From the NCBI GenBank assembly GCA_003152275.1, contig PLZU01000091.1:13474-77473 (forward strand): DNA of 64,000 bases, in the 5' to 3' direction. A program made the position numbers and the translations under genes. The notes below the pieces were generated by a model. The model did no database searches. It was not told where the DNA came from and saw only the letters and a list, made by a program, of their open reading frames with translations. Positions 8,123-10,202 of the stretch are shown here, one piece after another; position 1 is the first letter of the stretch; each line of letters begins with the position of its first letter. Source of the stretch: Actinomycetota bacterium. GTDB taxonomy: Bacteria > Actinomycetota > Thermoleophilia > Gaiellales > Gaiellaceae.

Positions 8123-8890
8123 ATGGCCGAGGTCGAGGTAGCACGCGACGGTGCAGTCCAGACAATCACGCTGAACCGTCCCGACGTCTTGAATGCGTTC
8201 AACCGCGCGCTGCACAAGGCGCTGCGGGAGGCACTCAAAGAGGCACGCGATCCGGAGGTTCGGGCGGTCGTGCTGACCGGCGCCGGCCGTGGCTTCTCGG
8301 CGGGTCAGGACCTGAAGGAGTTTGGCGAGACGGCAGACATCGGCGACGCGCTGCGCGACTCGTATCACCCGAACGTGCTCGCGATCCGCGCGCTCGAGAA
8401 GCCCGTCATTGCAGCGGTGAACGGCGTGTGTGCGGGAGCCGGGCTCTCGCTCGCCTGCGTCTGCGACTTCCGCATCGCCGCTGACAACGCGAGCTTCGTG
8501 CCCGGCTTCATCGGCATCGGCCTCGTTCCCGACGCGGGCGGCACGTACTTCCTACACCGGCTTCTTGGCGCGTCACGGGCGTTCGAGTGGATGTCGTCGA
8601 ACCGCAAGCTCTCCGCCACCGAGGCGCATGCGTGGGGTCTCGTCTCGGAGGTGGTCAAGCCGGATGCTCTACGGTCACGCGCGGCCGAGCTCGCGGCGTC
8701 CTATGCCGCGCTTCCAACCCGCGGGATCGGCATGACGAAACGCCTCTTCGATCACGCGGACAATGCGACGCTCGAGGAGCAACTCGAGCTGGAAGCGCAA
8801 CTGCAGGCGGCGGCTACGCAGACCGAGGACTTTCGCGAGGGCGTCGCGGCGTTCCTCGAGAAGCGCGCCCCCGAATTCAAAGGGCGCTGA
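8123..8890 (+). CDS. paaG: Enoyl-CoA isomerase, PaaG-like (1,2-epoxyphenylacetyl-CoA isomerase)
   Basis: 255 residues. Crotonase fold with GRGFSAGQDLKEF, NGVCAGAGLSLACVCDF and GLVPDAGGTYFLHRL. The aspartate in LVPDAGGT is where E. coli PaaG carries its catalytic Asp, rather than the glutamates of hydratases, and this supports isomerisation of ring-1,2-epoxyphenylacetyl-CoA to the oxepin form. The paaABCD operon, whose product makes that epoxide, lies about 5 kb downstream on the other strand. The assignment is by motif and context. Confidence 0.82.
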   Translation: MAEVEVARDGAVQTITLNRPDVLNAFNRALHKALREALKEARDPEVRAVVLTGAGRGFSAGQDLKEFGETADIGDALRDSYHPNVLAIRALEKPVIAAVNGVCAGAGLSLACVCDFRIAADNASFVPGFIGIGLVPDAGGTYFLHRLLGASRAFEWMSSNRKLSATEAHAWGLVSEVVKPDALRSRAAELAASYAALPTRGIGMTKRLFDHADNATLEEQLELEAQLQAAATQTEDFREGVAAFLEKRAPEFKGR

Positions 8891-9304
8891 TCACTGGCCG
8901 GTAGCGAGCTGCGCGCAGACGTGCATGCCGAGGTTGGCCGCGGCCTGACGACTCTCGCTGCCGGCGAGCTGGGCGCGCGCCGCCGCCGCGGTCACCGATG
9001 GGAAGTCGCGGCGTTGCGCGCCGACGCCGAGGTCTCTCACGGCTTTTGCAACGTGACGGTCGGCGGCGAGCCACGCGCGCACAGCCGCGGCGTCACTCGA
9101 CGACGGTTTCAGCGCTTCGAGCCTGCGGAGCGCCGCCTCGTAGAGCGGCAGCGTCTTGTCCACGTACTGCACGATCTGTATGTACGACCGCGGCCGCAGG
9201 ATGACCTTCGTCTGCGATGAGTACGCGGAGCACACCGCGTCCGCATTCTTGACGAAATCGGAGTGCGAGAGTCGTCCGCTGCCACAGCCGGCGAGAGCGA
9301 TCAG
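8891..9304 (-). CDS. Small lipoprotein, function unknown; start codon unresolved
   Basis: The frame encodes a hydrophobic stretch ending in a clear lipobox (ALAVLIALAGC) followed by a helical domain of about 130 residues with two cysteines (DAVCSAYSS and GMHVCAQL), so it is exported and lipid-anchored. No ATG, GTG or TTG exists in frame near the signal sequence. The coordinate given is a CTG that overlaps the stop of the upstream Rdx gene as CTGA, but the signal peptide appears to begin about 20 codons earlier, inside that gene in another frame. Homologues would settle the start. It abuts paaG tail to tail. Confidence 0.6.
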   Translation of the reverse strand: MIALAGCGSGRLSHSDFVKNADAVCSAYSSQTKVILRPRSYIQIVQYVDKTLPLYEAALRRLEALKPSSSDAAAVRAWLAADRHVAKAVRDLGVGAQRRDFPSVTAAAARAQLAGSESRQAAANLGMHVCAQLATGQ

Positions 9305-9519
9305 GACTGCAAGAGCGCAAGCACTTCGCCCGGCTCCGGAAAGCGATCGACGTCGTGCTTGGAGAAGACAAGCCTGCCGTCGTCCAGGACGTCGAACTGC
9401 CCCGAGCGTCCCGCTGTGATCGTTGCGTCGAATCCTCGCTCCTTCAGCTCGGCCGCGAGACTCGCAGCCCGACGGTCGTACCCGCTTCAGACGGGGCAAT
9501 AGAAGATTTCGACGCTCAT
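9301..9519 (-). CDS. Rdx/SelW-like selenoprotein (UGA read as selenocysteine)
   Basis: ATG at 9517-9519 opens MSVEIFYCPV, then TGA (9487-9489), then continues in the same frame as SGYDRRAASLAAELKERGF, with SGQFDVLDDGRLVFSK and FPEPGEVLALLQS, to TGA at 9301-9303. The whole 72-codon frame aligns with the thioredoxin-like Rdx (SelW/SelT/SelH) family. Its N-terminal YCxxC is here YCPVU: the TGA replaces exactly the second redox residue. A SECIS-like hairpin follows 17 bases after the TGA. Rdx proteins are small oxidoreductases that often use selenocysteine. The alternative is a Cys-to-stop mutation of a pseudogene. Confidence 0.78.
9451..9469 (-). promoter_or_regulatory. Putative bacterial SECIS hairpin
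   Basis: On the coding strand the RNA GGCUGCGA-GUC-UCGCGGCC forms an 8-base-pair stem (one G-U pair) with loop GUC. The stem starts at +18 and the loop guanine lies at +26 after the in-frame UGA. Bacterial SECIS elements lie within the coding region roughly 16-37 bases after UGA, with a short apical loop whose first bases include G; E. coli fdhF has GGUCU. Position and loop fit. The prediction was made by eye, without energy calculation. Confidence 0.6.
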
Positions 9520-9597
9520 CTGAGAGAGCGTCGCAGACGCGCTGGCTGCCGGGCAAGTCCTAGAGGGGTGCGGTCTAACGATCTTTCTAGCAAAAGT

Positions 9598-9609
9598 CAG
9601 ACCGGTCTG
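9598..9609. promoter_or_regulatory. TetR-type operator palindrome
   Basis: CAGACCGGTCTG is a perfect 12-base palindrome lying 8 bases before the ATG at 9618 and 26 bases before the alternative GTG at 9636 of the TetR gene. AGACCGGTCT-like palindromes are common operators of TetR/AcrR repressors, so autoregulation is likely. It also lies upstream of the divergent Rdx gene, which may be controlled by the same site. Confidence 0.6.
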
Positions 9610-9617
9610 TCTACCAG

Positions 9618-10202
9618 ATGTGTAAGCTACGTCTCGTGAGCGCCGAGCCCATCGCCCGCGACCGCATCCTCGAGAGCGCGTACGAGCTCTTCTCCACCCG
9701 CGGTGTTCGTGCCGTCGGGATCGACGAAGTGATTGAGCGGGCTGCGGTCGCCAAGGCGACGCTCTATCGGCACTTCCCGTCGAAGGACGAGCTCGTGCTT
9801 GCATTTCTCAAGCAGCGCGAGGTGGTCTGGACGCATGGCTGGGTCGAGGCCGAGGCGCGTAAGCGTGGTGCGACTCCCGAGGAGCAGCTGCTCGCCATCT
9901 TCGATCTCTTTGACGAGTGGTTCCACCGCGCTGACTTCGAAGGCTGCTCGTTCATCAACGTCCTGCTCGAGACGGCCAACCGTGAGCATCCAGTTGGCCG
10001 CGCGAGCGCCGAGCACCTCGAGAACATCCGCTCCGTCCTCCGCTCCCTCGCCGACGAGGCCGGCTTGCGCTCGAGCGACGAGTTCGCGCGCTCGTTCCAC
10101 ATTCTCATGAAGGGCTCGATCGTCCAGGCGGGCGAAGGCGATGTTGACGCCGGGAAGCGCGCCAAGGAAATGGCGCGCGACCTGATCGAGAAGTACCGCT
10201 AA
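9618..10202 (+). CDS. TetR/AcrR family transcriptional regulator
   Basis: 194 residues (188 if GTG 9636 is used, which would begin VSAEPIARDRIL). The N-terminal HTH spans roughly residues 10-60, with ILESAYELFSTRGVRAVGID and the recognition helix in AKATLYRHFPSKDEL. The C-terminal ligand domain contains GCSFINVLLETANREHP, as in LmrA/YxaF-like members. A 12-base palindrome upstream suggests autorepression. Targets may include the divergent Rdx gene; the inducer is unknown. Confidence 0.9.
   Translation: MCKLRLVSAEPIARDRILESAYELFSTRGVRAVGIDEVIERAAVAKATLYRHFPSKDELVLAFLKQREVVWTHGWVEAEARKRGATPEEQLLAIFDLFDEWFHRADFEGCSFINVLLETANREHPVGRASAEHLENIRSVLRSLADEAGLRSSDEFARSFHILMKGSIVQAGEGDVDAGKRAKEMARDLIEKYR

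Follow-up and report, generated by a model that had tools for sequence, protein, structure and literature searches.

Within the 64,000-nucleotide stretch of DNA that we analysed (the window), a minus-strand frame begins with ATG at 9519-9517, carries an in-frame TGA at 9489-9487 and ends with a second TGA at 9303-9301. Read through the first TGA, its product has 72 residues, MSVEIFYCPV-U-SGYDRRAASLAAELKERGFDATITAGRSGQFDVLDDGRLVFSKHDVDRFPEPGEVLALLQS, with the motif CPVU at residues 8-11 (Table 1). The first-pass annotation had described such a frame, with the TGA standing at the second Cys of a CxxC motif, and we found it exactly so. That annotation also held that ordinary gene callers miss the gene (hereafter selW) and split it. 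They do miss it, but there is nothing to split: ordinary annotation overlooks the frame because the UGA comes after just 10 codons and no in-frame start follows until the last codons. The gene is also overlapped and shadowed by the frame of a lipoprotein (ORF 8891-9556). No sigma-70-type promoter for selW was found by a consensus scan, and no clear ribosome-binding site was seen.

Table 1 Features of the selW locus in the window.
Feature	Position	Strand	Evidence
Rdx/SelW-like selenoprotein gene, 72 codons and terminal TGA	9301..9519	minus	frame, family models, homologues
Codon 11, the selenocysteine UGA, at the second CxxC position (C-P-V-U)	9487..9489	minus	TGA at the aligned position in 74/74 loci
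TGC codon of Cys8 in CxxU	9496..9498	minus	invariant in protein alignment A2 and in 51 aligned codon columns
bSECIS-type hairpin, 8-bp stem and GUC loop, within the coding region	9451..9469	minus	folding, covariation, codon conservation

An enoyl-CoA hydratase gene (PF00378; window 8123-8890) is convergent with selW and adjoins it in many relatives, at ~70-82% identity. A functional link between the two genes was rejected, because convergent genes give none. Between selW and a divergent TetR gene (9618-10202, plus strand) lies the palindrome AGACCGGTCT (9599-9608), which occurs once in the window (0.06 expected) and looks like a putative TetR operator.

The family of the product was examined by searching family models with Cys placed at the UGA. 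Over its whole length the product matched Pfam Rdx (PF10262; E 1.8e-11, 44.5 bits, cut-off 22.6) and TIGR02174, CXXU_selWTH (41.5 bits, cut-off 34.2); with the Campylobacter-type model NF041051 it stayed below the cut-off (63.5 of 88). The comparison of the 72-codon frame with Rdx, which the first-pass annotation had proposed, came out in favour of the gene, and homologues align over the UGA. An AlphaFold2 prediction made with 17 sequences (pLDDT 96.2) has a strand at residues 2-7 and a helix at 14-27 with the motif between them, and the predicted model takes a thioredoxin-like beta-alpha-beta-beta-beta-alpha fold. Its top PDB matches were SelW-related proteins (2fa8, 2p0g, 2ojl, 2oka, 2obk and 3dex; TM 0.84-0.89 for the best chains), and human MIEN1/C17orf37 was another of the top matches. 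Compared by fold and identity, these structures are alike in fold but share 22-34% identity with the product, and in the present gene UGA takes the second place of the motif.

We searched 399 genomes of the class for homologues in six frames and with a Pfam Rdx scan. The six-frame search gave a homologue in 71 of the 399 genomes, with E down to 7e-29, matches spanning the UGA and a TGA inside all full-length matches. When the loci were read, TGA occupied the aligned codon in 74/74 and the frame was open beyond it, closing with TGA in 37 loci, TAG in 29 and TAA in 8. Rdx matches were obtained by the Pfam scan in 74/399 genomes, and full-length matches with exactly one TGA in 72 of these 74, suggesting that Sec is used in Rdx almost without exception in these largely uncultured Thermoleophilia of a Gaiella-like family. 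The Cys form, CTQC, was seen only in G236 and G389, which belong to one genus and in which neither selA nor tRNA-Sec was found; the sole other TGA-free match of the Rdx scan is a fragment at a contig end. The relatives that carry names are MAGs of Thermoleophilia, Actinomycetota and Gaiella, besides a bin labelled as Acidobacteriota and two matches in Planctomycetota. In the Planctomycetota locus that was read (L117), UGA again occupies the same motif, and a GGUCT motif follows downstream. The same clade also has a distant second subfamily of Rdx (EYCVPU; L081-L095), whose analogous hairpin has a GGUCU or GUC loop and other stem letters, and three genomes (G075, G197 and G305) carry both subfamilies.

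Downstream of the UGA, the hairpin GGCUGCGA-GUC-UCGCGGCC extends from +18 to +36 and has its loop G at +26, just where the first-pass annotation had put it. Folding of the downstream RNA, also proposed beforehand, gave a divided answer: the hairpin forms, at -12.5 kcal/mol when folded alone, but with 52 nt of context its stability is no better than that of shuffles (z -0.93). The bSECIS consensus model has an apical loop of 3-9 nt and an upper stem of 4-16 bp, a G at loop position 1 or 2, frequently with G or U after it, a UGA-to-loop distance of 16-37 nt and an MFE of at most -7.5 kcal/mol (PMC13188914). With its 3-nt loop, 8-bp stem, G in first place and 25 nt from UGA to loop at -12.5 kcal/mol, the selW hairpin lies within all four constraints. 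Of the 1270 TGAs in the window, 64 (5%) are likewise followed by a G-loop in the allowed range on a stem of no fewer than 8 pairs. Because 5% of the window TGAs have an equal hairpin and the context z is -0.93, the hairpin in isolation is weak evidence; as a single sequence it is no more than chance would be expected to give, and on the same two grounds we rejected its stability in context as proof. Rfam SECIS_1 (RF00031) had no match in the window's own genome and none in any control genome either, and at the gathering threshold no Rfam match was found within the window.

The hairpin was then viewed across homologues, with codons counted in 51 main-subfamily genes and stem covariation in 54 sequences. 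The serine at U+9, under the loop, is encoded by AGT in 47/47 cases, as against 4/166 for the other serines in these genes (background 0.02). The neighbouring codons under the hairpin are GCG for Ala in 50/50 (background 0.47) and CTC for Leu in 48/48 (background 0.62), and the loop G is invariant in 54/54 sequences. The 8-bp stem is paired at 97.9% in the 54 sequences, a value reached by 0/500 shuffles, and slid versions of the stem pair at 26-52%. Covariation of the stem lies above all 500 shuffles, both sides having changed in 7 cells versus a shuffled mean of 0.8; only two stem pairs show a double change because the stem is so highly conserved. These alignments indicate that conservation of the hairpin exceeds the demands of the protein, with compensatory changes in the stem, and that frame and hairpin together, followed across homologues, go beyond chance expectation.

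The genome from which the window comes (3.25 Mb, 86% complete) contains all the genes of the selenocysteine machinery for which the first-pass annotation had suggested a search. selA (C59:15549-16793) adjoins selB (C59:16808-18427), selD (C12:29014) is free of internal stops, and the tRNA-Sec at C36:23646 has the anticodon TCA (UCA). Nor is selW the sole selenoprotein gene of this genome, because the gene for the formate dehydrogenase alpha subunit, FdhA (L120; G000:C94:184550-185287), has an in-frame UGA in VDSCNRTUHAPSVVGLA, where RTUHAPSVVGLA is canonical, and a GGUCU-loop hairpin; an N stretch, which is an assembly feature, divides the FdhA match between two frames. The FdhA element, of the fdhF type, resembles that of selW in being a small G-loop hairpin after the UGA, which the same SelB machinery presumably recognizes, whereas the protein is unrelated and the hairpin lies ~6 nt closer to the UGA and has a 5-nt loop when folded alone. 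The earlier claim that the cell decodes selenocysteine is thus supported by the machinery genes and by the conserved TGA in homologues, from which we infer insertion itself, and the frame is almost certainly a true bacterial selenoprotein gene, one of the SelW-like/Rdx family.

Across the class, selA was found in 56/72 UGA-Rdx genomes versus 136/327 others (Fisher p 2e-8, with kinship not corrected for). Full selA is absent from 16 of the 72, with a mean listed completeness of ~77%; among these 16, a true tRNA-Sec occurs in four and selB in one. In selA-less genomes, selB matches near 200 bits were rejected as SelB, being below the cut-off and probably derived from other GTPases of translation. 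Most RF01852 matches there, which Aragorn identifies as Ser tRNAs, were rejected as tRNA-Sec. For about 11 UGA-Rdx relatives (G091, G179 and ~9 others), no selA, selB or true tRNA-Sec was present among the matches listed (135 tRNA candidates scored), and two of these genomes are listed as 91% complete. One possible interpretation of these relatives is that a reassigned code or a suppressor tRNA decodes the UGA as Cys or Trp in part of the clade. However, TGA serves as the terminal stop in 37/74 loci, and the window's own genome has the hairpin together with a true tRNA-Sec, so that we rejected this interpretation as very improbable. The machinery of the ~11 relatives likely escaped notice because the MAGs are incomplete and the tRNA candidates scored stopped at 135, the tRNA result holding among the matches listed.

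CxxC Rdx proteins do occur in the class, in G236 and G389, and the selW frame might be imagined as an ordinary Cys-Rdx gene in which a nonsense TGA replaced TGC or TGT, either in a pseudogene or by a sequencing error. The same TGA in 74/74 loci from independent assemblies, with the downstream frame intact, already refutes this reading, and the RNA-level conservation and the Sec machinery of the genome also speak against it, leaving it next to no probability. Decay of the frame after the TGA in close relatives, which the first-pass annotation had named as a possible refutation, was looked for and did not appear; the frames are conserved. Just as implausible is a real stop after a 10-residue peptide, with the downstream conservation owed to an overlapping gene such as the lipoprotein: the overlapping ORF 8891-9556 exists, but conservation of the protein tracks the Rdx frame, with matches and a Pfam family spanning the UGA, and in most relatives no overlapping lipoprotein lies beside the gene.

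Selenocysteine insertion at codon 11 of the selenoprotein gene rests on established knowledge of SelA, SelB, SelD and tRNA-Sec. SelA would convert Ser-tRNA-Sec to Sec-tRNA-Sec with selenophosphate from SelD, and SelB would bring Sec-tRNA-Sec to the ribosome and bind the hairpin that follows closely on the 3' side of the UGA, whereupon the UGA would be read as selenocysteine and not as a stop. The expected thioredoxin-like protein of 72 residues has Cys8-x-x-Sec11 at the N-end of the first helix. Most likely it would be a small thiol/selenol oxidoreductase working through a Cys-Sec selenenylsulfide, an activity that we infer along with its substrate. Action on thiols or glutathione has been proposed for SelW-like proteins (PMC1088965), and by analogy the Cys8-Sec11 redox couple may act on thiols or glutathione.

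The lipoprotein frame (window 8891-9350, minus strand) has the lipobox ...VLIALAGCGSG and begins within the 3' end of selW. No ATG, GTG or TTG stands at the expected place in the window or in L020 and L040, and L023 has an ATG further up; several free-standing relatives have such a start codon ~15-20 residues before the Cys. It is conceivable that the lipoprotein is made only by ribosomes that have passed the Sec UGA, either reinitiating or shifting frame at the selW stop, because in the window, and in two close relatives out of three, no start stands at the expected place ahead of the signal peptide, but we consider this very unlikely. If true, synthesis of a membrane lipoprotein would depend on the selenium supply.

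The selenoprotein family to which selW belongs was already known in bacteria. SelW-like CxxU proteins have long been recognized as bacterial selenoproteins (PMC1088965, PMC1794560, PMC2398784), and theirs was the most abundant family in two marine surveys, of the Sargasso Sea (PMC1088965) and of the GOS (427, CxxU; PMC2398784). Among sequenced bacteria, they were reported in Geobacter sulfurreducens and Symbiobacterium, with few Cys forms in Sec-using organisms (PMC1794560). In the library that we searched, no relevant paper on selenoproteins of Gaiella or Thermoleophilia was found. Because such proteins were already known from surveys and sequenced bacteria, the present gene is an added member, and knowledge of the SelW-like family itself is unchanged by it; UGA-Rdx genes escape ordinary annotation, and the near-constant hairpin is a convenient seed for searching. 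With the bacterial SelW-like selenoproteins (PF10262/TIGR02174) the gene shares the CxxU motif with Sec in second place, the thioredoxin-like redox family, a bSECIS hairpin in the coding region just past the UGA and the rarity of Cys forms in Sec-users. It differs from the known ones in its host, a Thermoleophilia/Gaiella-like actinomycete of soil type, and in a hairpin that is nearly invariant across the main subfamily.
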